Translations under genes and position numbers: made by a program
Shown here: in pieces, positions 8,508 through 57,900 of the stretch
Position numbering within the stretch: the stretch's first letter is position 1
Layout: every line of letters begins with the position of its first letter
Notes under the pieces: generated by a model
Told to the model about the DNA's origin: nothing
What the model saw: the letters and a program-made list of their open reading frames with translations, nothing else
Database searches by the model: none
IMG/VR virus record: IMGVR_UViG_3300035703_000025
Span: 61,472 to 125,471 of that record
Direction: 5' to 3' (one strand)
Source of the DNA: a virus
DNA length: 64,000 nt

Positions 8508-8517
8508 GTGTATAAAA
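8508..8517 (+). promoter_or_regulatory. GTGTATAAAA box, leaderless-type
   Basis: The first T of TATAAA is exactly 11 nt before the A of the ATG at 8522. There is no Shine-Dalgarno sequence between box and start. It lies in the 15-nt gap between two tail genes and would be an internal promoter. Confidence 0.5.
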
Positions 8518-8521
8518 CAAT

Positions 8522-9361
8522 ATGGGAACTTCATTTTTAGGACAAACGCCAAGCCAGACATACAAAGATATTTTACAGATATCTAACTCAAATAACGGTA
8601 TGCCAACAACGCTACGTGCTGTTGCTGCTGGAAACGGAACCGATTCTGCTCTTAAAATATGCACAACTGGAGTTGACATAAACGGAGTCCTGTTAATAAG
8701 CGGCACAAGAATTACAGCCACCGCTTCAGAAATTAATAAAATCGACAGGGCTGGCTCTGATGGCGATGTTGAATCAAATAAAGTAATAGTTGCTGGATCT
8801 AATAGAGACATAACTTTTAATGGCGGCGTTATTAGCATGGCTGGTTCTGGATTGTTACAAAACGGAACAATCAGAAACATGGCTATTGAAAGCTTTTCAT
8901 TTGGCGGCTATCAAGTAAGCGCAACTGGATCAACATCAACTGGCGTTTTTGTTATTTACCCAGCTAGCGGAACTACACAAAAAGTAACACTAAATCAGCC
9001 GCTAACACAGGTCTCAATATCTAAATCACCATTTCAAGACCAAGATGCTAGCGGAACCACAGGCCTTCCAGCGACTTACATGAGAGATTATCGTGTGACT
9101 TTTTTTGCAGTTCAAGACGCTGCTGGTAATAGGGAGGTTGATTTCGACAACTCAATTATTTGGCCACGCGAACAATGGGCTAGCGGATACTCAAAGCCAA
9201 GACTAAACTCTCCAGTCACAGCGACTGGCACACAAATAGACGGTTTTGAATTTTACAGTTTTGATTATGGTGTAACTTGGTACGGAAACAGGATAGCCTC
9301 CTCAATTGCTTCTTCAAGCGCTGGCCCGCTTGATTCTATAATTGATGGCGGCACTTATTGA
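8522..9361 (+). CDS. Tail fibre/baseplate-type protein with TATASEIN motif
   Basis: The 279-residue protein contains GTRITATASEINKIDRAG at residues ~60-77. This matches the 'T-TA-EIN-LDG' repeat common in phage tail fibre and collar proteins, so a beta-helical or fibrous structural role is likely. The C-terminal part (residues ~120-279) is a compact Tyr/Trp-containing domain ending in DGGTY. It sits inside the tail operon, and its start has the 11-nt promoter box and no ribosome site. Confidence 0.65.
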   Translation: MGTSFLGQTPSQTYKDILQISNSNNGMPTTLRAVAAGNGTDSALKICTTGVDINGVLLISGTRITATASEINKIDRAGSDGDVESNKVIVAGSNRDITFNGGVISMAGSGLLQNGTIRNMAIESFSFGGYQVSATGSTSTGVFVIYPASGTTQKVTLNQPLTQVSISKSPFQDQDASGTTGLPATYMRDYRVTFFAVQDAAGNREVDFDNSIIWPREQWASGYSKPRLNSPVTATGTQIDGFEFYSFDYGVTWYGNRIASSIASSSAGPLDSIIDGGTY

Positions 9362-9373
9362 TTTGAGGAAAAT

Positions 9374-14157: not shown

Positions 14158-14158
14158 A

Positions 14159-15532
14159 ATGGAAATACCAAAGGACACACACGGTCTAGTACCAGGAGAT
14201 ACGTCTCTTTCAAATTTAAGAAACAGACCAGTTCCACAAGGTGGTGAGCCTGGAACAATAAACCCATTTACAGCAAGATTTATAGGTCTTGCTGGACCAG
14301 TAGCTATTGCTGGTTGGGGATACGATATTTTTGGAAGGCCTGTTCCTGGGGCTGTAAATCTAGCCGAACTTAATGGTATTGAAAGTAGCCCAAAAAACTA
14401 CAGCCAGACAAAGTTTATAACAAAAAACGCAGGAGGCGCAAAGTTTCCGCTCGGTGGAGAGTCTCTTCCAACGCATCATGTAGCTGGAATGCTTGATGTA
14501 AGATACGACCCAAGACACGGGCTTTGGAGAACAAATCATTTTTTCTTAGCAGAGATAACTGGAGTTGTTTCGACAGGCAATAGTGTTTTTTGCAACAGAT
14601 ACGGCTGGAGAGAAATAGAAATACATGAAATCAATCTTCCAGATCCAACAACAAAAAATATGCCAGTAGACACGCTTGACTTTCCATACCCAGCAAGGTC
14701 TTATGTCTCTGGAAATGAAATAAATAACTACGCAATAAATTTAGCCGAATCTTCTGCGAATCAACACGATAGGATTCATCATAAAATACCATCTGGTACA
14801 ATTGTGCAGATGAGATCTATCAATGTTCTTAAATCAAATAACGGTACTGATCCATCTCTTAATGATTATCAGCCGCTTTATATTTTTGAACAGGCTGGAT
14901 ACAATAGTGTCTTTATAAAAATACTAGGGTACGATGGAACTTATCCCGGACCGCTTTCTGAAGGGGATGCGTCTCCGCTTGGTAACGAACCAAACTACAA
15001 TCAGGCGCGAATGCCGACTAGATGGATTTATCAAGGAGTTATAGTTCAGTTTAGCGGTGGTAGAGATCTTCCGCCAGATAGAAGATTCTCAACTCCTTTT
15101 GGTTCTTTTGTTGAAGACGAAACCATACCAATTCAATACAGAAAAGTCCAGTGTGTAAATCTTATAGAGATTGGAAATCCGCCAGGCAGAAGAGGCTTAG
15201 TATGCCCAGGGATTGTTACTGCTACTGGAAACGCAATAACAGCAGCAAACGTTTGGCCGGATGGGGTTCCTGCTGGAATAACGCTTGCTGCTGGAACAAA
15301 GTCCGCATATCCTAAAGGCTTTTCTGTTCAACCAGTTTGTAGTGGTACGATTGTGGAAGCCCGAAGACTCCCCTCACCAAACGGCACAAGCACATACGGA
15401 CCAATATACTATTTTCAAGTAGAAAACGCTCACGATGGCGGGTGCGCAAGCGGAGTTTGGCCTTTCTACGGACACACAACTCAATCACCAATGGAATACG
15501 GATCTGCTAATACTCCAAGACCTGGTGTATAA
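14159..15532 (+). CDS. Baseplate/tail tip-associated protein, unknown
   Basis: A 457-residue protein following the hub-like gene after one base. It is Gly/Pro-rich with many aromatic residues; a HHVAGMLDVRYDPRHGLWR segment lies near residues 102-122 and FCNRYGWREIEIHE near 142-155. No catalytic motif is evident. It may be a spike or a second hub component, inferred from position. Its stop codon is inside the promoter-like box of the next gene. Confidence 0.55.
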   Translation: MEIPKDTHGLVPGDTSLSNLRNRPVPQGGEPGTINPFTARFIGLAGPVAIAGWGYDIFGRPVPGAVNLAELNGIESSPKNYSQTKFITKNAGGAKFPLGGESLPTHHVAGMLDVRYDPRHGLWRTNHFFLAEITGVVSTGNSVFCNRYGWREIEIHEINLPDPTTKNMPVDTLDFPYPARSYVSGNEINNYAINLAESSANQHDRIHHKIPSGTIVQMRSINVLKSNNGTDPSLNDYQPLYIFEQAGYNSVFIKILGYDGTYPGPLSEGDASPLGNEPNYNQARMPTRWIYQGVIVQFSGGRDLPPDRRFSTPFGSFVEDETIPIQYRKVQCVNLIEIGNPPGRRGLVCPGIVTATGNAITAANVWPDGVPAGITLAAGTKSAYPKGFSVQPVCSGTIVEARRLPSPNGTSTYGPIYYFQVENAHDGGCASGVWPFYGHTTQSPMEYGSANTPRPGV

Positions 15533-15533
15533 T
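15525..15533 (+). promoter_or_regulatory. GTGTATAAT box, leaderless-type
   Basis: The box is embedded in the last codons of the preceding gene (ggt-gta-taa). The first T of TATAAT is exactly 11 nt before the A of ATG at 15539 and no ribosome site is present. Confidence 0.5.
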
Positions 15534-15538
15534 ACAGT

Positions 15539-16183
15539 ATGGCAACAGTCACTTTTTACGCTAACGAAGGCATAGGCGCAATAAATAGCGGAAGCCAAAA
15601 TTTAAATGGCTCTGGAATAGGTTTTTTTGGAAATGGTGGCGCTTTTGCTAGCGTCAGGATTGGTGAATACCAAGACAGAACATTTGTGTGCGACGCAAAC
15701 GGCACTGCCGTTGGTGCAGAAATAGATAACGTAAAGTATGTAAATGCGACAGGAGCACTAATAAGCAGAGGTGGCACTACAGACGCATCGCTTCCGCTTG
15801 TAAATATACCAAATTACAAATCTACATTGAACATCAGATTTGACCACGGTTCGGCTGTTCGTACTCAAAACGCCAAAGTTCAAATTTACGACAGGACAAA
15901 CGTTAACAACGCACCATCTGGCGTTGTATGCCAAGTTGCTGAAATTGTTCATCCAGAGGTCTCCCAAGCAGTTGTTGGCTCAGGCGACTCGTCTTGGATT
16001 TCCTGCAGTGGATCAACACCATACGTTGACTTAATAGCAAGCCCAGGAATAAGTGGCATAAGAGTATCTGGATCAAATACAACAGAAGCGCAACACGACT
16101 GGTACGTCTGTATTTCAGCTTCACCAACAGGAATAGGTTCGCACACCCAGTTTGGAATATACTTTACAACAGAGTACCTATAA
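15539..16183 (+). CDS. Virion decoration/tail protein, first of a tandem paralogous pair
   Basis: A 214-residue beta-rich protein. It shares with the next gene a 'RIGEYQDRTFV' motif (residues ~41-51), an 'IDNVKYV' counterpart, and a C-terminal 'SPGISG....QHDWYVCIS' block, so the two arose by tandem duplication. The shared TRHDWY/QHDWY element is probably a buried core strand. It has no ribosome site but has the 11-nt promoter box. The stop overlaps the next ATG (TAATG). Function is inferred as structural from the operon. Confidence 0.6.
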   Translation: MATVTFYANEGIGAINSGSQNLNGSGIGFFGNGGAFASVRIGEYQDRTFVCDANGTAVGAEIDNVKYVNATGALISRGGTTDASLPLVNIPNYKSTLNIRFDHGSAVRTQNAKVQIYDRTNVNNAPSGVVCQVAEIVHPEVSQAVVGSGDSSWISCSGSTPYVDLIASPGISGIRVSGSNTTEAQHDWYVCISASPTGIGSHTQFGIYFTTEYL

Positions 16184-16854
16184 TGCCAATTATTGGTCTT
16201 TATGGACAATTTGGCAGCGCAAAAAATGTACTTATTGGATCGTCAAGCAAGTACTTTTCTTCATTTTCAACGGCTCTTGGTTTTGGCGCAGTTGATGCCA
16301 AAAATTCAATAATTTTCCAAAAAGTTGGAGAGTACCAGGGAAAAACATTTATTTCTCCTGGTGACAAAACGGCTATCGCTGAAGAAATAAATAACTCGGT
16401 GTACGAAACGTCATCAACGGCAGACGTAATAAGCCCAGAGCTTGGTTCGTATAAGGATATAAATGTAAACTATATACCAAATAGAGCGGCGCCACTAAAT
16501 CTAAGGGTTTCTGATTTATCATCCATACGAGTCTCTAGCTGCAGAATGTATATAAATGACGGTTCTTCGACTGGAATATCAACTTCATTTTACGACTTCA
16601 AGTGGTACGAGTGCGTACACACAAGTACCGACGAAACAGCACCAGGGTCTGGAGCAGCTTCTTGGTCTTCAATGCCAGCAGGGTCTACTGGGTCTATAGT
16701 ACTCAGAACAAGCCCAGGAGTAAGTGGTTCAAATCCTACAGGAAGCTTGTCGTATTCAACTAGACATGACTGGTATATTTGCTTGAGTCTTACGCCAGCT
16801 AAAACTTTTCAACAATCAACTATGAGCCTTTCGTGTATTATAGACTACGTGTGA
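16183..16854 (+). CDS. Virion decoration/tail protein, second of the tandem pair
   Basis: 223 residues, paralogous to the preceding protein: KVGEYQGKTFI near residues 46-56 and SPGVSG...STRHDWYICLS near the C-terminus align with it in order and spacing. The central ~90 residues differ more, with an extra WYECVHTS segment. Keeping two diverged copies side by side suggests a heteromeric ring or two rings of the same fold. No catalytic residues are seen. Confidence 0.6.
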   Translation: MPIIGLYGQFGSAKNVLIGSSSKYFSSFSTALGFGAVDAKNSIIFQKVGEYQGKTFISPGDKTAIAEEINNSVYETSSTADVISPELGSYKDINVNYIPNRAAPLNLRVSDLSSIRVSSCRMYINDGSSTGISTSFYDFKWYECVHTSTDETAPGSGAASWSSMPAGSTGSIVLRTSPGVSGSNPTGSLSYSTRHDWYICLSLTPAKTFQQSTMSLSCIIDYV

Positions 16855-16861
16855 GGTTAAA

Positions 16862-17071
16862 ATGGAAGACAGCGGGTGGATGGAGTATCGAAAATTAGTT
16901 TTAAACGAGCTTCAGCGCTCTAATGATCGCCTTACTCGTATAGAAAACGACATAGGTGAAATAAAGGAAAAGCTTGCGGTGCTTCAGACAAAAGTTTATT
17001 TTACATCAAGCACGCTTGCATTTTTGATCTCAACAGTAGTAGCATTTTTTACAACGACAATGAAAGCATAA
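16862..17071 (+). CDS. XhlA/holin-like small membrane protein
   Basis: 69 residues: an N-terminal amphipathic coiled coil (residues ~12-44, RLTRIENDIGEIKEKLAVLQ) followed by a single membrane segment (~46-66, TSSTLAFLISTVVAFFTTT). This is the plan of the XhlA/hemolysin family of phage lysis-associated membrane proteins. GAGG lies 8 nt before the ATG. No endolysin is seen next to it, so a structural membrane-anchor role remains possible. Confidence 0.6.
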   Translation: MEDSGWMEYRKLVLNELQRSNDRLTRIENDIGEIKEKLAVLQTKVYFTSSTLAFLISTVVAFFTTTMKA

Positions 17072-17072
17072 A

Positions 17073-19447: not shown

Positions 19448-19448
19448 T

Positions 19449-22109: not shown

Positions 22110-22111
22110 TT

Positions 22112-25479: not shown

Positions 25480-25495
25480 GTTGTACCTGTGCCTT

Positions 25496-27077: not shown

Positions 27078-27716
27078 TTACTCAGCTGTTATCTTGATCT
27101 TAGGACGTATCTTAAAGTTCATAAACGACATATACCGTTTAAACATTTCCGCCGTAATCTTCACGTCCTCAAGCGCGTCGTGAGTCTCAGATGTCCTTTT
27201 CATACCAAGTAAACCAGCGTAAGTGTCTAGTCTGTTATTTTTAAGGTTATCCCTGCCAAAAATAGAAAACATCATGGGCATCATATCGAGTTTTATGTTT
27301 GACCACGGGCAATCATTTTTGCCATTAATTATCTTGTATTTGCGCATCCAGTATTCAACAAATCTATCGTCAAAATTACAATTGTTATAGCCAACAATTA
27401 TGGGATATTCCCATGGATTTTCAGAAGGGTTTGATATAGAGAGATACTCTTTAAACTTTCTAAGAGCTGTCTTTGGGTGCATTCCATCGGTTTGCGCTTT
27501 TGTCCAAAGATCTTGGCCAATTACTTGTATTGCTTTAGCGTCAGCCTTTTCAGGACTTTGTGGTTGAACGGTAATGCAAAATTCGGGAATTGTTTTTGAT
27601 ATTTCGTAATCCGAGTAATTAAGTGTTACTGCAGCTATTTGAACTATCTCGGCACCGTTTTCATAATCTAGACCAGTGGTTTCAATATCGTAAACAACGA
27701 AATTCCTCTTGTTCAT
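27078..27716 (-). CDS. DnaQ-like 3'-5' exonuclease (proofreading)
   Basis: 212 residues of the DEDDh superfamily: Exo I VVYDIETTGL with D10 and E12, Exo II around NNCNFDDRFVEYW, and Exo III THDALEDVKITAEMF near the C-terminus with the catalytic His and Asp. It probably serves as the epsilon-like proofreader of the split polymerase since it is immediately upstream of the C-terminal half. Start ATG lies exactly 11 nt from the first T of TACAAT and has no ribosome site. Confidence 0.92.
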   Translation of the reverse strand: MNKRNFVVYDIETTGLDYENGAEIVQIAAVTLNYSDYEISKTIPEFCITVQPQSPEKADAKAIQVIGQDLWTKAQTDGMHPKTALRKFKEYLSISNPSENPWEYPIIVGYNNCNFDDRFVEYWMRKYKIINGKNDCPWSNIKLDMMPMMFSIFGRDNLKNNRLDTYAGLLGMKRTSETHDALEDVKITAEMFKRYMSFMNFKIRPKIKITAE

Positions 27717-27721
27717 GTAGG

Positions 27722-27727
27722 ATTGTA
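27722..27727 (-). promoter_or_regulatory. TACAAT box, leaderless-type, for the exonuclease/polymerase unit
   Basis: The first T of TACAAT is 11 nt from the A of the ATG at 27716 and no Shine-Dalgarno sequence intervenes. It lies back to back with the box at 27734-27744 in a 31-nt divergent intergenic space. Confidence 0.45.
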
Positions 27728-27733
27728 GTGTTC

Positions 27734-27744
27734 GTGTATTTAAT
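27734..27744 (+). promoter_or_regulatory. GTGTATTTAAT box, leaderless-type
   Basis: The first T of TATTTA is exactly 11 nt before the ATG at 27748. No ribosome site. It drives the divergent late unit opposite the exonuclease gene. Confidence 0.5.
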
Positions 27745-27747
27745 TTT

Positions 27748-28410
27748 ATGGATCAAATGCGATTGGGCATAATAAAACACATTAACGCGGCAGCTGAGAG
27801 CTTTCCTGCCCGTTTTGACGAACCAAATGTGCCTATAGACGCAACACCAACACACTCTTTGTCAGCCCCATCAAAGTTTGATTTATGGATGTCAAGTATA
27901 CTTGATTCAATAATCCGAAGATTTGGCGGTATAAATAACGCGATAATTTATTTTTTAGTAAACAGGCTTGGATTTACGCAACAATTGGCTGAAATGCTTG
28001 TTGTGCATCTTACGCTTGTTGAAAACATCTTGTGGGATCTGTCTGTATGGTTTTATTTGGGAAGACAAACAGATGTAGTCTCAGAGATTGTCAGGTCAAT
28101 AATATGGAGTTTTGTAAATGCTCTTAATCTTCCACTTGGGTCTGACGCAGAGCAGCTTGTTGCAAGAGTCGCAATTTCTATACAAGATGGCCTAACAGAA
28201 AACTTATGGACACCAACTGTTGTTGGAGAGGTTTGTGCTGCTTTACAACGAGGATGGACTTTGCAGCAGATACTAAGCTGGATGCAGCATCTAAGCCGTG
28301 GTGGTACTTACTATCACTGGCCTGACACGTGGTCTGAAGCTGAACTAGAAATACGGGAAAGAGAAGAAGAAGACAGAGAAAACAGCGAGGCTGGGCTAGA
28401 AAATGAGTAA
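27748..28410 (+). CDS. Late protein with N-terminal basic tag, hydrophobic helices
   Basis: 220 residues. The N-terminal segment MRLGIIKHINAAAESF (from the second Met, codon 4) resembles the basic amphipathic tag of other late proteins here. Hydrophobic helices at ~65-115 (NAIIYFLVNRLGF, LVEN ILWDLSVWFYLG) could contact membrane, and the C-terminus is very acidic. No family is recognised. It overlaps the next, Cys-rich gene by 8 nt. Whether translation starts at the first or the fourth codon is open. Confidence 0.55.
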   Translation: MDQMRLGIIKHINAAAESFPARFDEPNVPIDATPTHSLSAPSKFDLWMSSILDSIIRRFGGINNAIIYFLVNRLGFTQQLAEMLVVHLTLVENILWDLSVWFYLGRQTDVVSEIVRSIIWSFVNALNLPLGSDAEQLVARVAISIQDGLTENLWTPTVVGEVCAALQRGWTLQQILSWMQHLSRGGTYYHWPDTWSEAELEIREREEEDRENSEAGLENE

Positions 28411-28960: not shown

Positions 28961-29588
28961 TGTGTGAAAAAGCAGCCTCTATTTCTTTTGGTACACAATT
29001 AAACCGCCCCTTTAGGGACGGTTTTACTTTATTTATAATCGATCTTTTCCTCTCGAAGGAGTCGCCAATCCATTTACCAGTATTACAAAGAACCCAGTAT
29101 TTGTAAAGCGTTATCGCGGCGGATCTTTTGTAAGCCTCAACGTTTATCGGTAGCCCAAATTTTCTTATAGTTTTAACGGCTCGCCTTTCGCAGTCAAGCT
29201 CGCAGGCAATAGTTTTTTTAGTGTAGACACGGCGTAACCGCTTGTTGTAGTTTGCTTCGCCGTTTTCAAGAAGGGAAAGCTTGTAAGTTGCGTCCTCACC
29301 GCCTTTAAGAAACGTGTTCGTGTAAGCCGGAGATCGCTCTATCCATTGCATCATGTGGCAGTACTCGTGCACAAGAAACCCAAGCCATTCGTGAAGCGGC
29401 CTGTCGCCCCTGGCAACCACTATGGTTTTTTCGTTATCAGAATCTAAAAAGTATCCACAGCAAAGGGTGTTACCAGCAGGCTCCCTGACGTTGTTGCTAT
29501 TTTTTATTTTTACAACTACTCCGTGCTCTTTTGCCACAGCCTTAACGTGAGCGATAAAATCTTTAACCCTGCTTTCATTGCTCCCCAT
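28950..29588 (-). CDS. Putative zinc metallopeptidase (HExxH)
   Basis: 212 residues with the zinc-peptidase helix LVHEYCHMMQW: H74, E75, H78. A downstream ACELDCERRA helix (~128-136) offers E130 or E134 as the third metal ligand, as in gluzincin/SprT-like folds. No signal peptide, so it acts in the cell or is carried in the virion. It is transcribed alone, divergently from the tail fibre gene, from a leaderless-type late box. Possible roles are prohead or tail protein processing, or attack on a host protein. Confidence 0.7.
   Translation of the reverse strand: MGSNESRVKDFIAHVKAVAKEHGVVVKIKNSNNVREPAGNTLCCGYFLDSDNEKTIVVARGDRPLHEWLGFLVHEYCHMMQWIERSPAYTNTFLKGGEDATYKLSLLENGEANYNKRLRRVYTKKTIACELDCERRAVKTIRKFGLPINVEAYKRSAAITLYKYWVLCNTGKWIGDSFERKRSIINKVKPSLKGRFNCVPKEIEAAFSHIST
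29001..29025 (+). terminator. Rho-independent terminator
   Basis: aaaccgcccc-ttta-gggacggttt folds into a stem with one mismatch and a 4-nt loop, followed by a short T-run. It lies 40 nt past the + strand unit and inside the 3' coding end of the convergent metallopeptidase gene. Confidence 0.55.
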
Positions 29589-29591
29589 ATG

Positions 29592-29602
29592 CTATAATAC
29601 AC
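29592..29602 (-). promoter_or_regulatory. GTGTATTATAG box, leaderless-type
   Basis: The first T of TATTAT is exactly 11 nt from the A of the ATG at 29588; only CAT separates box and start. Confidence 0.5.
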
Positions 29603-29646: not shown

Positions 29647-29659
29647 GTGTATATTTAAT
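29647..29659 (+). promoter_or_regulatory. GTGTATATTTAAT box, leaderless-type
   Basis: TATTTA begins 11 nt before the ATG at 29663 (the GTG part is shifted by 2 nt compared with the other boxes). No ribosome site. Forms a divergent pair with 29592-29602. Confidence 0.5.
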
Positions 29660-29662
29660 GTA

Positions 29663-31777
29663 ATGCCAAGAATAAAGACAAAAAACTCCACAACATCTAC
29701 GTCAACGCCAGCAAGCGGATCTTTGCTGCAGGGAGAGCTTGCGGTAAACATAACAGACAAAAGACTTTTTGTTGGTAACGCGTCAGGAAATCCAGTAGAA
29801 ATCACAAATCAGGGTGTTACCGCTGTATACGGTTCAACAAGCGGTATTTACGTTACACAAGCAACTGGTTCCACAACAATAGGGCTTGATCCAGACGTTT
29901 ACGTAAGCGGATCGATGCACGTAAGTGGCGTTTTGACTAGTAACATAGGGGCGCTTAATCTTTTTGCGTCAGAGGATCCGACAACTGGGTGGAGCCATTG
30001 GATAACAGCACAATCGTACAATGGGTCATATTCACAGATAGCTGGAAACGACGTTGGTGATTTAATTTTCAGAACACAGTCAAACATTTTTGGGATTGAG
30101 CCTACTGGTGCTCTAGCTGTTACGCTTGATTCGTTTACTGCAACAACGGGATTTCTGTATCCATCACCACTAGATATTCGAATTGGCAACACTAATTCTA
30201 CAACAACGTTTCCTGGCGATGTAAACATAACAAAAACACTTACTGTTGACCACATCAATGGTGATCTAGACGGTTCTGTTCTAAAGGCGTGCAAGAACAC
30301 CGACTCTATAACTCTGCGAAAAGGCGACCCTGTTTTTATTGCTGGCGTTGTTGGCTCTACTGATGTGATTGAGGTTCAGCTTGCGAGAAGCGACACCTCA
30401 GCAAAAATGCCAGCTGTTGGATTGTTATCTCAGCAATTAACAGCAAACGCAACAGGATACGTAACAGTAATTGGTACACTTGATGATGTTGACACTTCTG
30501 CATTTACCGTTGGTAATAGTGTGTTTGTTGCTTCTACTGGCTGGCTTACTGCTGTAAGACCAACAGGGGCAAGCATTCTTGTGCAAAACATTGGTCGTGT
30601 TGGCCGGGTAAACTCTAACAACGGCCAAATAGTTGTGCTTGGACCAGGCAGAACAAACGATGTTCCAAACAACATTTTAGCTTCTGGAACGCTTACTCTA
30701 GGAACCCCTGACATAATAACTCCGCTTGTTGGTACAGCAAGCGTGTTTAACACAAACGTTTCAAGAGTAAACATAGGAACTTCGGCAAGCGGTATACAAA
30801 TAGGTCACGCGACTGGTGTTGTCACAGTTGGTGACCTCTCTGTTAATGACGGAACTATAACAACAACCGCAGCATCTGTAACTGTATTTAATACAACAGC
30901 CACAACACTTTCAATGGGCGGCGCTGCCACAACAATGACTATTGGCGGCACCACATCAGCAAGCACTTTAAACATTGGAACTGGCGCAAACGGAGCTGGT
31001 GTAACAAAGACAATAAATATAGGAACTGGCGCTTCTGTTGGTTCAGCAACAACAAACATAACGATAGGTCCAAACATAGCGTCTACTGGCACGGTAACAA
31101 TAAACGGTAGAACAAACGTAATAGGACCAAACGCAACAGGAATAACAATTGGTGGTCTGCAACTAGACACAACCGTTGGTAGCAGTACTGGGTTTATAGA
31201 TATTGGAACAAACTCGGTTTTTGGTGGCCACAAGATAATAAACATTGGAACAAACGGAACTTTTGGTAATAGCCAAATAACAATCGGAAATACTCTAGGT
31301 GGGCTTATCCTTAAAGGGTCTTCGGCAAGCGGGGTTATCCTTGATTCAGGACCATTGAGAGCGTTAGGCCAATCAATAATTACAAGCTCTGATGTTAGAG
31401 CAACAGGATCTGTTGTTGGTTGGGGCAGCGTACAATCTACTGGCCACATGCTTGCCGCAAGCGGATACCGCATAACATCAAACGCAATAAACGCACAAAC
31501 CGCAACGGGTTACACACTACAGGCTTCGGATAACGGAAGAGTAATAACTTTTAACAGCGCAGGAAGCCACACGCTGCGAATACCGACTGGCCTTGACGTT
31601 GGATTCAACGCCACAATAATTCAGCTTGGAACTGGACAAGTAACTTGCACTGGTCTTTCAGGAGCAACACTAAACTGCTACGCATCTGGAAACAAGATAA
31701 GCGGACAGTTTGGAGCAGCAAGCGTAATTTGCTACGCAACAGACACATACAATTTGGCAGGAACACTCACAGTATGA
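29663..31777 (+). CDS. Tail fibre / receptor-binding-type protein
   Basis: 704 residues. The N-terminus PASGSLLQGELAVNITDKRLFVGNASG is the standard opening of many phage fibre proteins (G-L--GE-AVN--D--L-V-N--G). The middle and C-terminal parts hold many 'INIGTGA..G..TTINIG' type strands, expected of a beta-helical shaft. It has the composition of a trimeric extracellular fibre: Gly, Thr, Ser and Asn rich. Followed in ATGA overlap by a leucine-rich-repeat protein that may cap or bind it. Confidence 0.85.
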   Translation: MPRIKTKNSTTSTSTPASGSLLQGELAVNITDKRLFVGNASGNPVEITNQGVTAVYGSTSGIYVTQATGSTTIGLDPDVYVSGSMHVSGVLTSNIGALNLFASEDPTTGWSHWITAQSYNGSYSQIAGNDVGDLIFRTQSNIFGIEPTGALAVTLDSFTATTGFLYPSPLDIRIGNTNSTTTFPGDVNITKTLTVDHINGDLDGSVLKACKNTDSITLRKGDPVFIAGVVGSTDVIEVQLARSDTSAKMPAVGLLSQQLTANATGYVTVIGTLDDVDTSAFTVGNSVFVASTGWLTAVRPTGASILVQNIGRVGRVNSNNGQIVVLGPGRTNDVPNNILASGTLTLGTPDIITPLVGTASVFNTNVSRVNIGTSASGIQIGHATGVVTVGDLSVNDGTITTTAASVTVFNTTATTLSMGGAATTMTIGGTTSASTLNIGTGANGAGVTKTINIGTGASVGSATTNITIGPNIASTGTVTINGRTNVIGPNATGITIGGLQLDTTVGSSTGFIDIGTNSVFGGHKIINIGTNGTFGNSQITIGNTLGGLILKGSSASGVILDSGPLRALGQSIITSSDVRATGSVVGWGSVQSTGHMLAASGYRITSNAINAQTATGYTLQASDNGRVITFNSAGSHTLRIPTGLDVGFNATIIQLGTGQVTCTGLSGATLNCYASGNKISGQFGAASVICYATDTYNLAGTLTV

Positions 31778-33338: not shown

Positions 33339-33350
33339 GTGTATAATAAT
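33339..33350 (+). promoter_or_regulatory. GTGTATAATAAT box, leaderless-type
   Basis: The first T of TATAAT is exactly 11 nt before the ATG at 33353; no ribosome site; it lies in the 19-nt gap after the sulfotransferase gene. Confidence 0.55.
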
Positions 33351-33352
33351 AC

Positions 33353-33634
33353 ATGGGCTTAGCTAATAACAAGATTAAGAGCGCACTGAGAAAATTGCAA
33401 ATAGCAATGGGGACAGAAATAACCTCGTACAAAGGTATAAAGGTTGGCGATCGCGTAAAAGACGTAAATCAGCAGTGCATGCATTACGGCAGCGTAGGGG
33501 TCGTTACTATGATTGAGGCCCTGCCAGAAAACAGCGGATACCTTATTCATTATACCGTAGAAAATGACGGACCTTCGTATGGCCCAGGAACAGTGCTCAA
33601 AAAGACAGAAGATCAATTGGAAAAACTATCATGA
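33353..33634 (+). CDS. Small KOW/SH3-like protein with N-terminal tag
   Basis: 93 residues. After a basic amphipathic N-terminus (NKIKSALRKLQIAMG) comes a beta-barrel-like domain, GIKVGDRVKDVNQQCMHYGSVGVVTMIE, similar to KOW or SH3-type modules. The next gene encodes a second such domain without the tag, so the pair may be related. Overlaps the next gene by 4 nt. Function unknown. Confidence 0.6.
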   Translation: MGLANNKIKSALRKLQIAMGTEITSYKGIKVGDRVKDVNQQCMHYGSVGVVTMIEALPENSGYLIHYTVENDGPSYGPGTVLKKTEDQLEKLS

Positions 33635-35053: not shown

Positions 35054-36015
35054 GTGGCTGGCAATACTTGTCTAGCTATTTGCTGAATTATTTCATTTAT
35101 TCTCTGAATAGCTGCTGAACTCAAACCAGCGCCAGCAGCAGCAGTAGATATTATCCCGCTAGCTGTGGAGCTAAGCCAAGCAGCAATACCAGCTACAGTA
35201 CCGCCAGCCAGGAAGAACGCGCTAAGACCAATAAGAACGGCGGTTAGAACACCAACAATTACAGTATAACCAACGCCATACTCTTCTACAAAACCCTGAC
35301 TAAGCACTTCTGCTGCTAGAACAAGCGCTGCCTCTCCTGCTCCAGCACCAAATTGATAGACAGCTGCTGCAATCGCAGCACCAAATGCATACAAATCCCC
35401 ATTGTTTAAAAACGAATCCCAGAAACGCTTAATTGATTCAAGTAGCTCTTTTGGTAGATTCGGGAACTTTGATACAAATGTGGCGTACATTAGATCTTTT
35501 ATGAATTTGTCTAGGGTTCCATCAGCAATGCATCTTCTTAATTGCCGCTTAACGTCCTCAATATTTGGATCAGAAGAATAAAGATTGTCTACTGCCCTAT
35601 TTAAAGTGTCTCTGTAGTTTGATGATTGCCATTTTTGCCAAAGCTCTCTAGCCTTCATCAAGGTATCACCAGTAGATGGATTTCCACTTAAGTAGCTTCC
35701 TATGGTGCCACCAAAAACGCCTTGAACCATTCCGTTTAGTAGTTGAAGGAAAGGGCCTTTGAGATATCTACCGAAAAGCTTAAGGCATTCTTTTTTCTTT
35801 CCTAGATATTTTAAAACTTGGTCAACGATCCAACTTAAGCCAGTAAATACTCCCATTCCGCCCAAAATACTGATGGCCCACCAGTCTGATTCGCCAAGAC
35901 CTAAAAAAGAACCACCTTCTTCAGCCTCGCCAGGAACACCAGTGGCCAGTTGAGTCTGGTCTTCTCTTGCTAAAGCAATTTGATTAAGCGTTTTTATAAA
36001 GCGGAAGCTTTCCAT
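35050..36015 (-). CDS. Virion-type membrane protein with N-terminal tag
   Basis: 321 residues with N-terminal FRFIKTLNQIALARED, a short linker TQLATGVPGEAEEGG parallel to TVLAPGQ in the downstream protein, and hydrophobic helices at ~45-65, ~210-240, ~250-275 and ~278-300. The central ~100 residues are polar (NLYSSDPNIEDVKRQLRRCIADG). The pair looks like a diverged duplication or two subunits of one membrane complex. Start has the 11-nt promoter box and no ribosome site. Confidence 0.55.
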   Translation of the reverse strand: MESFRFIKTLNQIALAREDQTQLATGVPGEAEEGGSFLGLGESDWWAISILGGMGVFTGLSWIVDQVLKYLGKKKECLKLFGRYLKGPFLQLLNGMVQGVFGGTIGSYLSGNPSTGDTLMKARELWQKWQSSNYRDTLNRAVDNLYSSDPNIEDVKRQLRRCIADGTLDKFIKDLMYATFVSKFPNLPKELLESIKRFWDSFLNNGDLYAFGAAIAAAVYQFGAGAGEAALVLAAEVLSQGFVEEYGVGYTVIVGVLTAVLIGLSAFFLAGGTVAGIAAWLSSTASGIISTAAAGAGLSSAAIQRINEIIQQIARQVLPAT

Positions 36016-36020
36016 ATAGC

Positions 36021-36029
36021 GTAATACAC
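36021..36029 (-). promoter_or_regulatory. GTGTATTAC box, leaderless-type
   Basis: The first T of TATTAC is exactly 11 nt from the A of the ATG at 36015, with GCTAT between box and start and no ribosome site. Confidence 0.5.
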
Positions 36030-46974: not shown

Positions 46975-46976
46975 TT

Positions 46977-48239: not shown

Positions 48240-48607
48240 TACTTGCCCTTGACGTATTTCTTAAACTTGGGAATTATTTTAAAATCCCAACCAATTGTAG
48301 CTTCGTACATGTCTCCAGTCCTTGTTAATTTACCAGCTTTTACAAATTCTTCGCAAAGAACAATACTGTAAAGCTCTTCTACAATTTGGCTGTCTTTTGG
48401 TTTTAAAAAAGCAAGATTGATTGGAAAATCAACCTCGCCATTTAAGTACTTGTGCACAACTACAGTTTTTCTACAAATTTCTTTTTTTACTTTGTCATCA
48501 ATTCTTTTCTCAAACACTTCGCAGGAAAGCTCTTCTGCAGTCAACACTTGTGAGTATATTGAAAGTAGTGAGCTACGATTTTCGTTTACATATTTCTCTG
48601 CGCTCAT
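48239..48607 (-). CDS. Small protein, unknown
   Basis: 122 residues from the ATG; the annotated TTG one codon earlier is less likely. Mostly helical N-terminal half, beta-rich C-terminus ending GWDFKIIPKFKKYVKGK. Preceded by a GTGTATTTATG box whose T lies 12 nt before the start. Stop overlaps next start (TAATG). Confidence 0.5.
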   Translation of the reverse strand: MSAEKYVNENRSSLLSIYSQVLTAEELSCEVFEKRIDDKVKKEICRKTVVVHKYLNGEVDFPINLAFLKPKDSQIVEELYSIVLCEEFVKAGKLTRTGDMYEATIGWDFKIIPKFKKYVKGK

Positions 48608-48611
48608 CAAT

Positions 48612-48622
48612 CATAAATACAC
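48612..48622 (-). promoter_or_regulatory. GTGTATTTATG box
   Basis: Begins in the dUTPase stop codon; the first T of TATTTA lies 12 nt before the ATG at 48607. One nucleotide off the 11-nt rule, so weaker evidence. Confidence 0.35.
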
Positions 48623-51955: not shown

Positions 51956-52006
51956 ATTGGTTTTTATTGTAGGATTAGTAGCTTCGCATACACATGGCTT
52001 TTAGAT

Positions 52007-52984
52007 TCAGTTACGGTATTCTTGTTCGATTTTTTGGGCGTAAATGTCCACACCGTACTTCTTGTAGAGATCGAAATTCTTCATGCCAATAGTTTGTCGA
52101 TCTTGCGCCGAAGTGCTAGCCATCTTTTTTGTCAATTCTAACAAAGATTCAAAGTCGTCACACAGCCATTCGTCTGTCTCAAGCATTTCTGGTATAGCGG
52201 AGTTTCTGTATGAGATGACTGGTTTTCCGCAAGAAAAAGCCTCAAGTATTGAAAAACAAAAGGCCTCGTTAGAAGATGGATAATGATAGACATCACAGGA
52301 GTTAATAATCTCCTGCTTTTGTTCATCGCTCACATTGGCAAATATATTAGTATTTTTCGCGCCTGTGTAATTTAGGTAGGCTGTAATACCATCAAAATAC
52401 TGTCGATCAAGAATCTCGCCGCCAATTATAAAATTATTGTTTGGCATGCGCGCAGAACAATAAATTGTGTCATGAATCATTTTTGATGGGCAGAAGCTTG
52501 AAACGCGGCCAAAAACAGGCACTTCTCGTTGCTGAGTTATTGACTCTGTGGAGCAAAGACCATACTTAACAATTTCAAAATTGCTAACGTTGGGGCTGAG
52601 TGAGCGCTGATACTCAGAGCTGAAAAAAATCTTGTTAAATTTCGATGTATCAAAACCGACAGTCTGCCCACATAAAACACTTGCGAAAAGCTTGCACTTT
52701 GGTAATGCGTCAATGAAAGACAGCTGTTGTGAGCCAGGCACAAATATGTGGATAACATCTGGGGAAAACCTGTTTAGATGATCCGTAAGATTTTGATCGT
52801 ACTCAAAGTTATTATTTGCAAACAGATACGTTTGCCCAAGCTTAGAGAACTTTTCCCTAAAAGGACCGTCAACACATCCAGCAAACATCATTTCGTGGTT
52901 TTTTGAAAGTGTCTGGGCTAAATTAAAAGACGCAAGAGACGATCCTCCTGCGTTAAAGAAGTTGTTTATAAAAGCTATTCGCAT
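52007..52984 (-). CDS. GT-B glycosyltransferase
   Basis: 325 residues from MRIAFINNFFNAGGSS, preferred over an upstream start by the Gly-rich GT-B acceptor loop and an 11-nt TATACT box. The donor domain has VYHYPSSNEAFCFSILEAFSCGKPVISY at ~245-272 with the GT4 E-x7-E pattern. Transcribed alone, divergent from the Cys-rich late unit. It may modify a phage glycan or host surface. Confidence 0.85.
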   Translation of the reverse strand: MRIAFINNFFNAGGSSLASFNLAQTLSKNHEMMFAGCVDGPFREKFSKLGQTYLFANNNFEYDQNLTDHLNRFSPDVIHIFVPGSQQLSFIDALPKCKLFASVLCGQTVGFDTSKFNKIFFSSEYQRSLSPNVSNFEIVKYGLCSTESITQQREVPVFGRVSSFCPSKMIHDTIYCSARMPNNNFIIGGEILDRQYFDGITAYLNYTGAKNTNIFANVSDEQKQEIINSCDVYHYPSSNEAFCFSILEAFSCGKPVISYRNSAIPEMLETDEWLCDDFESLLELTKKMASTSAQDRQTIGMKNFDLYKKYGVDIYAQKIEQEYRN

Positions 52985-52989
52985 AATTA

Positions 52990-52995
52990 AGTATA
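52990..52995 (-). promoter_or_regulatory. TATACT box, leaderless-type
   Basis: The first T is exactly 11 nt from the A of ATG at 52984 (TATACTTAATTATG); no ribosome site. Back to back with the + strand box at 52997. Confidence 0.5.
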
Positions 52996-52996
52996 G

Positions 52997-53007
52997 GTGT
53001 ATAAATA
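52997..53007 (+). promoter_or_regulatory. GTGTATAAATA box, T4-late-like
   Basis: Contains TATAAATA, the exact T4 late promoter core, 19 nt before the ATG at 53019. A leader of a few nucleotides is possible; no strong ribosome site. Confidence 0.55.
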
Positions 53008-53018
53008 AAAGTACAGTT

Positions 53019-53621
53019 ATGGATACCAAAGAACCAGATTATATTTTTACAACTCGTGAGGCCGCAGAAAACATGGCTAAAAAACTAGGCTGTGGCGGAA
53101 CACAAGAGTTTTATAATATAGATGGAAAACAGGCTGGATTAAAGGCCGATACTACTTATTATTTGCCCTGTTCTTCGCGTGAAGCCCTGCACAACAATCT
53201 TTCCAAGTATAAGAAAAAGATGGCTAAGGCTGAAGATCTAAATATAGAAGATATCGATTTTCTAGAGTGCGAAGGCCCAGTTTCTTTTGATGCTTTTTTA
53301 AGATCGTACTTTACTCAAGGCGGTGACTACGTTAGCGATTCTGTTCGCAGCACGCTAAAGAAAAAAGCTGACGACTACAATAAAAAAGGAAAGCATAAGA
53401 TACGGGTCTCTACTTTAATCACTGTTTTCAGAAGAGGCATTGGTGCTTACAAAACAAATCCGCAAAGCGTAAGACCAAATGTCAGAAGCGCAGACCAGTG
53501 GGGATACGGAAGGGTTAACGGTTTTTTACACGCACTTAGAACCGGGTCTTTCAAGAGAAAACCGTTTGACACAGATCTACTACCAGGAACGCACAGGCTT
53601 TCTAGCAAGGGGAAAAAGTGA
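53019..53621 (+). CDS. Conserved phage protein, DUF5824-like
   Basis: 200 residues from the ATG (MDTKEPD); a longer reading would start inside the divergent promoter. The end, VFRRGIGAYKTNPQSVRPNVRSADQWGYGRVNGFLHALRTG, followed by DTDLLPGTH, matches a short conserved domain found in many phage proteins of unknown function (GRVNxF...DLLP). N-terminal half carries a helix-turn-like segment. GTGA overlap with the Cys-rich gene downstream. Confidence 0.65.
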   Translation: MDTKEPDYIFTTREAAENMAKKLGCGGTQEFYNIDGKQAGLKADTTYYLPCSSREALHNNLSKYKKKMAKAEDLNIEDIDFLECEGPVSFDAFLRSYFTQGGDYVSDSVRSTLKKKADDYNKKGKHKIRVSTLITVFRRGIGAYKTNPQSVRPNVRSADQWGYGRVNGFLHALRTGSFKRKPFDTDLLPGTHRLSSKGKK

Positions 53622-54559
53622 ATAACAAATTAGAACAAAAAATAAAACGTCTTTTGGTTGCAAACAAAGCCACCGCCGCTGATTGTCGGAGGCCAGAGGG
53701 TCGATTTCAGGTTGTAGCAAATCCAACAACTAAAACCGAGGACGAGCGCGGAAATCCTATAGAAGTTGCAACAGATCCTTTGAATTACGTGTACAGAGAC
53801 GCTACGGCAAAAGATCTGTGTCCAACATGCACTTCAGCCTCATCATCACAGGTATGCCAGTGCCTAGACGCTTATTTGCAGTACGATTATTACAATTTTT
53901 ATTGCTCTAGTGGCGGTGGGTTTGGTGACGTACACGAGCCGGCACCAAGACAGCTTCCAGCTGGATGTCCGTCTTTTGCAAGCCTTGGAATGGCTGGTGT
54001 GATTAGTAATTATGCTGGATCAGTAGATAATCCGCTTGAGGCGGTCCCTAGAACATACAGAATGCTTATTGAGTATCTTACTGGTCGATACCCAGGGGAT
54101 ACGACGATCCCAGGAAACTGGGTAAACGTATTCGGGCCAACGCGATTAACAGAGCCTGACATGCAGGCTCCGACAACCCCAGCCATATGGCAGCAGTTTT
54201 GGGATGGTACTCACCCGTACTCACGCTCTATTACATCTAGCCCGTTCTTTACGCCTGGAGGGCTGCAGCTCGCAAAAATGATGTTTGATGCTAGATGCGG
54301 TATACGAGCAGAAGCGACATCTGGGGCCTGCTGTTCTGTAGCTGGAGATTTCGGGGGGTTCTCGTGTGCGGAGGTTGGAGGGCCAGGAGAATGTCAAAAC
54401 GGAACGTTTTATTCTGGAAAAACCTGCGAACAAATCGGAGGCGACAACTGCGGGAAAAGCAAAATTAGCGTAATAGCTCCGCAAAAAAGGGAAAACATAC
54501 AGCTTGGTACGGCTTCGATAACTGATATGATCATCAGAGCACTAAAAGGTAGTGTATAA
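53618..54559 (+). CDS. Cys-rich late protein with N-terminal tag and GACC-type module
   Basis: 313 residues, GTG start overlapping the previous stop with AAGGGG upstream. Basic amphipathic N-terminus (KLEQKIKRLLVANKATA), a middle region with CPTC and VCQC, and a C-terminal module ACCSVAGDFGGFSC...GECQNGTFYSGKTC...GDNCG. This module is a variant of the 'GACC--C---C-G-F-G--C' repeats seen in secreted proteins. The next gene has the same module, so both are paralogous in part. Role unknown, probably virion surface. Confidence 0.6.
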   Translation: MNNKLEQKIKRLLVANKATAADCRRPEGRFQVVANPTTKTEDERGNPIEVATDPLNYVYRDATAKDLCPTCTSASSSQVCQCLDAYLQYDYYNFYCSSGGGFGDVHEPAPRQLPAGCPSFASLGMAGVISNYAGSVDNPLEAVPRTYRMLIEYLTGRYPGDTTIPGNWVNVFGPTRLTEPDMQAPTTPAIWQQFWDGTHPYSRSITSSPFFTPGGLQLAKMMFDARCGIRAEATSGACCSVAGDFGGFSCAEVGGPGECQNGTFYSGKTCEQIGGDNCGKSKISVIAPQKRENIQLGTASITDMIIRALKGSV

Positions 54560-54568
54560 GGTATTATA

Positions 54569-55351
54569 ATGAAAAAGTCAATAGAAGAAAAAATTAGATT
54601 AACGGCACTAAAACAAACACCACCACCGCCAACGCTTTTAAAAAAGCCTGAAGGTGTAAATGAAGATCTTATGGGTGGTGGAGGCGGTGAAACGGTTGAT
54701 ATCTGTGGAGTGCGTATCCCAGCACAGATTCCGTATCCTTACACAATCACTATAGCGTACGATTGGATTATTACTAGCATGTACTGTCAGCCGAACCCAC
54801 TAGGCCTTGAATACGGGTGCACCCCAGTACATGCTGGTCCGCCACTTGGCTCTATTGTCGGGATTGGCCAGGTTACCGATAGAGATGAGCCATTAACTTG
54901 GATTAGGAGTCACCCTGAGTTTAATCCAACAGATCCCGCAACATGGGGTTCTGTGTGGGGTCCAGGTGGTCTAGCTGAAAGATTCGTAAGATACCTTAAT
55001 TGCCAAATGGGTGAGGACGGTGTGTACGGAACCGGACCGTGCCCAGGTATTACCGATGCGCAAATTAACGAAATGGTTGACCTACTCAAGCAGCTGTGGC
55101 TTCGCAAATGTGGTTTTGCTGTATCTCAAGCTGGTGCTTGCTGCTCTGTAGTTGGAGACTTCGGCGGATTTGCGTGCACAGAAGTTGCTGGAACAGCTAA
55201 TTGCCAAGGAACTTTTTACCCAGGACAAAGCTGCCAGCAGATAGGTGGCGACAATTGCGGTTTAGCACCAAATCCACTTCAGAAAAACAACCAAGCGAAA
55301 AAACAAAAAGAGGTAATGGAAGCGGTAATGTCAATTCTTAAGGTTAGATAA
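54569..55351 (+). CDS. Cys-rich late protein with N-terminal tag and GACC-type module
   Basis: 260 residues: basic tag (KSIEEKIRLTALKQ), Pro/Gly linker, a domain with CQPN and CTPV, and a C-terminal module ACCSVVGDFGGFACTEVAG...NCQGTFYPGQSCQQIGGDNCG that aligns with the previous protein. Spacing of the six Cys is conserved between the two. Possible disulfide-rich virion component; unusual for proteins made in the cytoplasm. Confidence 0.6.
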   Translation: MKKSIEEKIRLTALKQTPPPPTLLKKPEGVNEDLMGGGGGETVDICGVRIPAQIPYPYTITIAYDWIITSMYCQPNPLGLEYGCTPVHAGPPLGSIVGIGQVTDRDEPLTWIRSHPEFNPTDPATWGSVWGPGGLAERFVRYLNCQMGEDGVYGTGPCPGITDAQINEMVDLLKQLWLRKCGFAVSQAGACCSVVGDFGGFACTEVAGTANCQGTFYPGQSCQQIGGDNCGLAPNPLQKNNQAKKQKEVMEAVMSILKVR

Positions 55352-55832: not shown

Positions 55833-56997
55833 TCGCTGGTACTTTCATTATACAAAGATTTTCGTTAGTATTTTCATTTACTACTGGGCATCTTCCTTTT
55901 ATCTTTGCAATATCGTAAAACCCAACAACTGCAGCGTGTATATTATCCCATTTAAAGTCATCAACAATTACTAGTATTTCACCATTAAAAAGCAAGCAGT
56001 TCTTCAGATCTCCTAGCACAGTTTCAAAAGAATGACCGCCGTCTATAAAAATAAGAAGCTTTTCGTCAAATGAGTTTATCTTGTTTATCACACTTGGCAG
56101 TGTTGCAGAAGAAAGCCCAGCGACTACAAAAACTTGTGAATTAAAAATTGCCCCGCAATCATTAAGTATGCTTTTTGCTTCATCGAAAGTTAACGGTGCG
56201 TCTTCTGGGGCACCTTCATAAGTTGGGGCTGTATCAAAAAGATCAAGCAAAAAATGCGCTTTTGCATAAGATCGAGGTATAACCTCAAGAGATGTGCCAA
56301 GCCTGTAACAACCGACCTCAATGTAATAATGTGGATCAAACCAGACAAGGCTAGCCAATATGTCACTAATCTTTTCGCCAACTATGTTTCTTACTTTTTT
56401 GGCGTTTTCATTTTTTTTAAATAAAACGTCTATTTGAACCGTTTCATTATTGAGCTTGTTTTCATTTACTATACATGTAGGTAAAAAACCAATGGTCATC
56501 ATTTTTTTAATAACATCTGTTGCTTTTGCAGAGCCTGCATTGTATTCAACAATAGGAAGCTCAACAAGAACCCAGTTTGCTTTTTGAATTACACATTCGC
56601 CACCTCTGATAATTGACATCTCAGCACCTTGAGTATCAATTTTGATAAAATCAAAAGCGCAATCAGCCAATAGATCGTCAAGACGAATAGTCTCTAGGCT
56701 AATTGTGTTGTAATTGCCTTCGCTGTAAAACTCAGTATTTTCTTTAAATGAAGAAGCCCCCTGGCAAGTTGGTTCGTTTTTGTTTATAAAAAACTCAACT
56801 GTCTTTTTTTCATCACCAAGTGCGCAAATCATATAATCCGCGCCGCACTCTATGAGTGCGTCTTCACAGGCTGGATTAGCTTCTATTGAGAGAATTTTTG
56901 CTTCTGGATTTAATCCCTTGAATTTTAAAAACGACTGGCCGACATTTGCCCCAATGTCAAGTATTTTCTTAGAGTCTTTTATAATCTGCTCAAGCAT
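55813..56997 (-). CDS. FkbM-type methyltransferase fused to a second methyltransferase
   Basis: 394 residues. Residues 1-195 are an FkbM domain: ILDIGANVGQSF (motif I), VEFFINKNEPTCQGASSF and FIKIDTQGAEMSIIRGG, the signature FkbM sequence. Residues ~220-394 are a second Rossmann methyltransferase domain of the class with LIFIDGGHSFETVLGDL and ILVIVDDFKWDN. FkbM enzymes O-methylate sugars or antibiotics, so the fusion fits the nearby glycosyltransferases. Overlaps the downstream nuclease gene by 20 nt. Confidence 0.8.
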   Translation of the reverse strand: MLEQIIKDSKKILDIGANVGQSFLKFKGLNPEAKILSIEANPACEDALIECGADYMICALGDEKKTVEFFINKNEPTCQGASSFKENTEFYSEGNYNTISLETIRLDDLLADCAFDFIKIDTQGAEMSIIRGGECVIQKANWVLVELPIVEYNAGSAKATDVIKKMMTIGFLPTCIVNENKLNNETVQIDVLFKKNENAKKVRNIVGEKISDILASLVWFDPHYYIEVGCYRLGTSLEVIPRSYAKAHFLLDLFDTAPTYEGAPEDAPLTFDEAKSILNDCGAIFNSQVFVVAGLSSATLPSVINKINSFDEKLLIFIDGGHSFETVLGDLKNCLLFNGEILVIVDDFKWDNIHAAVVGFYDIAKIKGRCPVVNENTNENLCIMKVPAIANKTN

Positions 56998-57889
56998 TTA
57001 TTTTTCTTTCTTTAAGAATAGACTTCATCTGATTATACGAGTTTATTCCGTGGCTTGGATCTGAAATGTCTGCGTAGCCAAAACTACAGGCGCCAACGTT
57101 CTCATTAACTAAAAGCCTGCATCCACACATAGCAGCTTCAACTACTGTTCGCGCAGACGCCTCTTTCCAGTTTGGTGTGTGTATAAAGAACGTAGCCTTA
57201 TTCATAACTTCTGCTATTTCTTGCGGAGTTCCAGTCCCTAAATAGTTTTGTTGATCTATGAGATCTAGATTTCCTCGCCCAATAAACTTTATGTTGTTTC
57301 CAAACATATACTGGGCTTCAACAACGCCCTTGGCTTCTGTTATTGCCCCGACATATAGAACGTTAATTGGTCTTTCGTATCCTTTATTATGGAATATATT
57401 AGCGTCTATTTTTTGGAAATAGCAGAATGAGTTTGGAATTTGATTACCAATAAACTTGCACCACTCGTTATAATGAAGTGGGCTTAAAAATATATTAACA
57501 AAGCTGTTGGCCATCAACCCAGCCATAAATGTCTTTATTGCGTTTGGTTGGTATCTAACATCTGGTTGTATCATCCAGCCGCCGTATTCTTCTGGGGTTG
57601 CTCCAGTATACGCGCATTCAAAAACAACAGTTGGTTTTTTAGTATTTAAAAACTGTCTTTGCTCAGCAGGACCAAACCATTTTGATCCGCCTGGATCATT
57701 GAATAAATCAAAAAACACACAAAGATCTGCACTGTCTGGTGCCTGAAAAAGATCATTTGGTGTTATAACGTTTACAAAATACCCAGCCTCTTTCAAAGCA
57801 TTAATAAGATCTCTGCCAGTGGTATGGCCACCGCTTAAATAGTAATCGTCGCATAGAGGGCTTATAATTGTATAAATATTTGCTATCAC
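56990..57889 (-). CDS. GT-B glycosyltransferase
   Basis: 299 residues from a GTG start (MIANIYTI), chosen because an 11-nt TATACT box precedes it. SGGHTTGRDLINALKEAGY near the N-terminus is the acceptor loop; RPINVLYVGAITEAKG and ATFFIHTPNWKEASARTVVEAAMCGCRLLV hold the donor domain. Overlaps the FkbM gene by 8 nt. Likely acts on the same sugar structure as the methyltransferase. Confidence 0.8.
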   Translation of the reverse strand: MIANIYTIISPLCDDYYLSGGHTTGRDLINALKEAGYFVNVITPNDLFQAPDSADLCVFFDLFNDPGGSKWFGPAEQRQFLNTKKPTVVFECAYTGATPEEYGGWMIQPDVRYQPNAIKTFMAGLMANSFVNIFLSPLHYNEWCKFIGNQIPNSFCYFQKIDANIFHNKGYERPINVLYVGAITEAKGVVEAQYMFGNNIKFIGRGNLDLIDQQNYLGTGTPQEIAEVMNKATFFIHTPNWKEASARTVVEAAMCGCRLLVNENVGACSFGYADISDPSHGINSYNQMKSILKERKINA

Positions 57890-57894
57890 ATTTA

Positions 57895-57900
57895 AGTATA
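57895..57900 (-). promoter_or_regulatory. TATACT box, leaderless-type
   Basis: TATACTTAAATGTG places the first T exactly 11 nt before the GTG at 57889; no ribosome site. Confidence 0.5.

Follow-up and report, generated by a model that had tools for sequence, protein, structure and literature searches.

A GTGTAT or C-TATAAT word lies exactly 11 bases before many start codons in a phage lineage

Genome content and boxes in the window

The window, the whole stretch of DNA analyzed here, spans 64 kb and corresponds to bases 61472-125471, about half, of the uncultured virus record G000 (125,471 bases). G000 is a tailed phage. The window encodes a tape measure protein (2191-7902; PhageMin_Tail match 1.7e-19), a ribonucleotide reductase and several glycosyltransferases; the terminase (G000 47779) and portal (G000 49781) genes lie beyond it. 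One of the glycosyltransferases, at 61414-62589 (-), is of the TET-associated type (TAGT, 4.8e-40), a hint that the DNA of this phage carries modified bases. DNA polymerase III alpha is carried by two genes about 10 kb apart, one (25530-27074, -) comprising the finger and HHH part and the other (37404-39287, -) the PHP and NTPase part. Coordinates refer to the window unless G000 or another record is named.

Comparisons were made with three near relatives, G003, G005 and G006 (mean protein identity over matched genes 88%, 75% and 62%), and with a more distant clade, L063-L072, whose DnaE proteins are 50-61% identical. Among cultured phages only distant relatives were found for DnaE, the terminase and the first sigma factor described below, and searches with the second sigma candidate and with the 1066-aa protein at 10957 gave no close ones. 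A scan of genome contigs returned a single distant DnaE fragment and nothing else.

Two short words recur upstream of genes in the window. Distances for GTGTAT are counted from its second T, which is the first T of TAT, to the start codon. The GTGTAT sites are as follows.

8508..8524 (+): GTGTAT and start, distance 11; tail-fibre-like gene 8522-9361; kept in G003, G005 and G006
15525..15541 (+): GTGTAT and start, distance 11; gene 15539-16183; kept in G003, G005 and G006
27734..27750 (+): GTGTAT and start, distance 11; gene 27748-28410; relatives at 11-12
33339..33355 (+): GTGTAT and start, distance 11; gene 33353-33634; 11 in G003 and G005
29586..29602 (-): GTGTAT and start, distance 11; gene 28950-29588
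36013..36029 (-): GTGTAT and start, distance 11; gene 35050-36015
48605..48622 (-): GTGTAT and start, distance 12; gene 48239-48607; kept in G003, G005 and G006
29647..29665 (+): GTGTAT and start, distance 13, not 11; Mtd_N-like gene 29663-31777
54552..54571 (+): GTGTAT and start, distance 14; gene 54569-55351; box missing from G003
2166..2193 (+): GTGTAT, Shine-Dalgarno (SD) sequence AGAGGA and GTG start, distance 22; tape measure gene 2191-7902; kept in G003, G005 and G006
59576..59604 (-): GTGTAT, SD GAGGA and start, distance 23; gene 58967-59578
16833..16864 (+): GTGTAT, SD GAGGT and start, distance 26; gene 16862-17071

The second word is C-TAYAMT.

27714..27728 (-): C-TACAAT and start, distance 11; exonuclease (RNase_T) gene 27078-27716; kept in G003, G005 and G006
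52982..52996 (-): C-TATACT and start, distance 11; glycosyltransferase gene 52007-52984; kept in G003, G005 and G006
57887..57901 (-): C-TATACT and GTG start, distance 11; glycosyltransferase-like gene 56990-57889, directly past a terminator-like hairpin

A sequence-only reading of the window had described ten starts at which a -10-like box begins exactly 11 nt upstream. Nine of these stand: six starts carry GTGTATNNN with the first T of TAT at exactly 11 (8522+, 15539+, 27748+, 33353+, 29588- and 36015-) and three carry TACAAT or TATACT. The tenth does not, as GTGTAT precedes 29663 at 13 and the TATTTA listed for it is two bases out of register. Treating all ten as one class also mixed two, since the boxes of 27716-, 52984- and 57889- lack GTG and are preceded by C. 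The same reading saw no SD sequence at the ten starts, and indeed none lies at a usable distance; at 8522 a GAGGT at -17 to -13 overlaps the box and is too distant for a usable SD. It was likewise right that 2191 and 59578(-) are SD-led: AGAGGA or GAGGA lies between the start and a GTGTAT at 22 and 23 nt, respectively.

The genes behind GTGTAT include those for the portal, the tape measure, and tail-fibre-like, Mtd_N-like and lysozyme-like proteins, together with a 640-aa ORF at G000 53152 and an in-frame ORF nested within it. This set is consistent with late genes, many targets having no known function. The 640-aa ORF (L025:13352-15274, +; G000 53152-55074) has a GTGTAT start and is putatively leaderless. 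The nested in-frame start (L025:14777; G000 54577) opens a 165-aa frame with its own GTGTAT and a GAGGA SD; it is kept in G003 and G005, and the arrangement is reminiscent of lambda, where protease and scaffold genes are nested.

Position and form of GTGTAT

Every hexamer was scored at every upstream position, with none picked beforehand. GTGTAT at -14, which places its second T at -11, was the top-ranked hexamer-position pair in G000, G003, G005 and G006. In G000 it occupies this position in 9 of the 181 genes selected from the full record, with 0.8 expected from the upstream-only background. The sequence-only reading had proposed counting box-to-start distances over the whole genome and comparing them with shuffled upstream regions. 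That count peaks at 11, and the 9 genes compare with a mean of 0.13 at -14 after shuffling; no position rose above 3 in 60 shuffles. The other 59 permutations of the letters of GTGTAT exceeded 3 at no single position, and reversed words gave no comparable peak. Intergenic sequence, which makes up 6% of the genome, holds 26 of the 47 GTGTAT copies (3 expected), and in 4 of 4 near genomes no other hexamer is as strongly enriched between genes. The distant clade again ranks GTGTAT at -14 first (14 genes, 0.57 expected, p 3e-15; note that related sequences enter such counts repeatedly, so that p values overstate independence). An outgroup with DnaE identity of 30-34% has SD words in place of GTGTAT. 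The spacing of GTGTAT is real and far above chance.

These distances are not an artefact of start choice, because 8 of the 10 starts in the sequence-only reading are the first start codon past an in-frame stop and because the N-termini mostly align from residue 1 among relatives. Orthologous starts keep the same or nearly the same box distance although the flanks change. At G000 94824 (window 33353) and 38448, for example, the flanks are unrelated in relatives and GTGTAT is still found at 11. Boxes at G000 7142, 46916 and 52486 overlap upstream coding sequence, and these could also be conserved by protein constraint.

Thirty sites, selected for GTGTAT, were aligned. Sequence after the word is AT-rich, the last three hexamer positions vary, and T is commoner than A as the base after TGTAT in G000. 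No fixed final T, no -35 signal and no other promoter word upstream was seen in the 30 aligned sites. The housekeeping -10 element TANNNT was therefore rejected for this class because its final T is not conserved. Four distant records (L063:16151-16182 and the corresponding sites of L064, L065 and L068) have divergent genes with a common palindromic box, GTGTATACAC, from which one start lies at 11 (putatively leaderless) and the opposite one at 22-23.

With mechanically assigned starts, G000 has 18 GTGTAT sites at 10-14 (9 exactly at 11), 1 at 19, 8 at 20-29 and 1 at 35; distances 15-18 are unoccupied. In six distant records, 18 sites lie at 11, six at 12-14 and the others at 18-26. An SD sequence between box and start was found at 0 of 18 short-group starts in G000 and 0 of 24 in the six distant records, an absence that is partly automatic since the short group leaves hardly any room for one. 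All 11 of the curated long sites have an SD-like match of 4-5 bases, the one at G000 49781 being weak; an SD is present at 10 of 15 long sites in the distant records. Hand curation dropped G000 114490 (19, no SD), G000 113426 (35, no box in G006) and G000 84877 (a small ORF within a gene). The first of these, a GTGTATAAATA box at window 53000-53019 (+), lies 19 nt from the ATG of a 200-aa ORF and is kept in G003 and G005; it is the sole site in the otherwise avoided gap and counts against the model given below.

The base before the start codon was also compared. Distance-11 ATG starts have T or C at -1 in 10 of 10 cases in G000 and 17 of 18 in the distant clade (27 of 28 together), versus 32 of 94 (34%) other ATG genes; the p value of 1e-9 should be considered indicative only, due to the recounting of related sequences. 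Bacterial transcription commonly starts on a purine (+1) preceded by a pyrimidine (-1). A pyrimidine before the ATG is thus as expected if transcription were to start on the A of the ATG. In M. smegmatis, A or G is favoured at +1 and C is abundant at -1 (PMC6448022).

The second box and the sigma candidates

C-TAYAMT also occurs at 11 beyond the window, before G000 5370, 37748, 44515 and 53102. Its targets include the exonuclease, the glycosyltransferases and a sigma-like ORF (G000 44515-45111). An in-frame TTG lies upstream of starts 52984 and 57889, whose box spacing of 11 (once 12) recurs in relatives. None of 180 copies of TAYAMT lacking the preceding C or GTG lies at 11 in this phage, which argues that base context matters. 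The C-TAYAMT class fits TANNNT. Its sites in the distant clade are mostly leadered, and the relative of the 44515 gene there retains CTATAAT at 11. The ribonucleotide reductase start (window 51955-51971, -) has C-TAYAAT at 16 and no SD, an arrangement also present in G005 and G006. The left end of the record holds a few sites that resemble host promoters, TTGACA-N17-TATACT or TACACT, with AAGGAG leaders.

Two ORFs could encode sigma factors that read the boxes. The first (G000 7142-7696, 184 aa) is a clear sigma factor with regions 2 and 4 of the sigma-70 family, and is conserved in both clades. Scores in bits, with cut-offs in parentheses, are 35.4 (24) for Sigma70_r2, 33.4 (25.7) for Sigma70_r4_2 and 65.3 (42.9) for TIGR02937. 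Residues ∼77-91, the expected site of regions 2.3-2.4, are among the most invariant parts of the protein. In three records of the distant clade (L132:1504, L133 and L134) the ATG of the sigma gene directly follows the 3' end of an apparent tRNA gene.

The second candidate (G000 44515-45111, 198 aa), encoded upstream of the terminase gene, is a possible, weakly sigma-like protein with a region-2-like part only. It falls below cut-offs (TIGR02937 21.7 bits, cut-off 42.9; Sigma70_r2 17.5 bits, cut-off 24), and is conserved in one distant record (2.9e-59). The proven sigma factor gp36 of phiEco32 is also under the cut-offs of sigma models, and the ORF scores at a similar level. Comparison of the two candidates with hhalign gave no homology, and a profile search detected none between phiEco32 gp36 and either of them. 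Structure models of both are of low confidence (mean pLDDT 54 and 61) and have no significant fold match, with sigma factors heading both lists. A motif search for a phage multisubunit RNA polymerase found none. By its likeness to the phiEco32 protein, the region-2-only ORF may be the better candidate reader of GTGTAT.

A promoter model, its rivals and known systems

Both words are probably promoters without a -35 element. We consider it likely that GTGTAT is the core of a -35-less phage promoter whose transcripts start about 11 nt on, leaving the mRNA leaderless or SD-led according to distance, and that C-TAYAMT similarly gives leaderless mRNAs. RNA polymerase with a GTGTAT-reading sigma factor, most likely phage-encoded, would begin ∼11 nt past the second T of GTGTAT. 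For many genes this would place the transcription start on the A of the start codon, and the resulting mRNA, leaderless or nearly so, would be translated without SD pairing. A start codon 20-29 nt from the box would instead leave a leader of ∼9-18 nt bearing an SD. Both distance groups would be explained by one promoter with transcripts beginning ∼11 nt past the box: the start codon would lie either on the transcription start or far enough away for an SD, and the gap between would be avoided. C-TAYAMT at 11, likewise without a -35, would drive other leaderless genes, including that for the putative second sigma factor. Initiation at distance-11 starts is probably leaderless. That the boxes are promoters, where exactly transcription starts, which sigma pairs with which box and the late timing are all points that we infer.

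The sequence-only reading had also divided the genes into leaderless ones at 11 and leadered ones using ribosome sites. Comparative evidence supports both modes; what changes is that the same GTGTAT stands before the SD-led 2191, 16862 and 59578. Comparative evidence also favours its suggestion of a dedicated, mostly late promoter, the late part being limited by the many genes without a family match. Two further points weigh against the model. A spacing of 11 leaves 5 nt from TATNNN to the start, at the short end of the usual spacing, and a sigma factor with region 4 would be expected to need a -35, yet none is present. It is possible, though doubtful, that the two -35-less words are each read by one phage sigma and that both start transcription on the start codon. 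If so, leaderless initiation would be a standard mode of expression, with SD leaders on the same promoter for genes such as those for the portal and tape measure.

The boxes could be ordinary promoters of the host housekeeping sigma, in which case the phage would mirror a host rich in leaderless genes. Many bacteria do have leaderless genes with a -10 word near such a distance (PMC3160421, PMC12340547), and C-TAYAMT is like a normal -10 hexamer. As an account of all the boxes this is unlikely: GTGTAT lacks both the conserved final T of TANNNT and a -35, none of the 180 TAYAMT copies in other contexts lies at 11 in this phage, the phage has a sigma gene of its own, and host-like TTGACA-N17 sites with SD leaders occur separately. 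For C-TAYAMT alone, host promoters are quite possible. A fixed distance from starts, in place of an SD, is also what one would see if GTGTAT were no promoter but acted in translation, as a ribosome-binding word of non-SD type on the mRNA. We regard this as very improbable, as GTGTAT is also found 20-29 nt upstream with an ordinary SD intervening and precedes single genes at divergent junctions, which need a promoter; moreover, divergent starts in the distant records share one GTGTATACAC at 11 and 22-23.

An exact short word with a palindromic form in relatives might suggest the operator of a phage or host regulator, with the true promoter elsewhere. An operator has no need for a fixed 11-nt spacing, a pyrimidine at -1 or two distance groups, and no alternative promoter word was seen upstream of the GTGTAT sites; we give this reading hardly any weight. 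Chance in an AT-rich genome was a natural concern with a list that had admitted seven different hexamers, and is now scarcely credible: shuffles, permuted or reversed words and TAYAMT in other contexts give no such peak, and the distant clade has the same outcome. We retain the -35-less phage promoter as the preferred reading. The sites so understood would form a natural set for studying competition between leaderless and SD-led mRNAs with the promoter held constant, and the spacing rule (11 for leaderless, 20-29 for SD) would aid the placement of starts in uncultured phage genomes.

Leaderless mRNAs are known in bacteria and archaea, and -35-less phage sigma promoters are known too. The late promoters of T4 (TATAAATA, read with gp55 and the sliding clamp) consist of a single -10 element without a -35 and drive late genes, which are SD-led. 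They share with GTGTAT the single -35-less element and differ from it in sequence. The suggestion of a T4-like late -10 thus fails: identity with TATAAATA was rejected, as the shared core is GTGTAT and the last three positions, including the canonical final T, vary. In the open-access literature we found no report of a phage lineage that joins a start-codon promoter of this -35-less kind with the same box before a short SD leader in other genes.

Short phage-specific late elements are likewise found in phiKZ and AR9, where they are read by phage multisubunit RNA polymerases (PMC5312081). Leaders in AR9 are 26-491 nt long, and the AR9 paper calls phage transcripts often leaderless, so that leaderless genes by themselves have precedent in phages (PMC5312081). 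Leaderless genes of bacteria are marked by a promoter-like word ∼12 bp upstream of the start (PMC3160421). The TA-led genes of Actinobacteria and Deinococcus-Thermus resemble those described here in having a -10-like word ∼11-12 nt upstream and no SD, and their genomes likewise also contain SD-led genes (PMC3160421, PMC12340547); there the word is the housekeeping TANNNT, whereas in this phage it is GTGTAT or C-TAYAMT.

The nearest known type in form is the promoter of the phiEco32 sigma factor gp36, which has a single element, tAATGTAtA, and no -35, and from which transcription starts 6-8 bp downstream; gp36 lacks region 4 (PMC8948821). These promoters serve middle and late genes in Kuravirus (PMC8948821, PMC4331800), and the elements lie mostly 37-63 nt before SD-led genes. 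Alignment of TGTATA to this geometry would put the start ∼9-12 nt past the second T of GTGTAT, that is, at the start codon. The two systems have in common TGTAT in a -35-less element and a phage-encoded sigma factor; the base after TGTAT, A in phiEco32, is more often T than A in G000, phiEco32 has AAT where GTG is found here, and many boxes of the present lineage are placed on the start codon.
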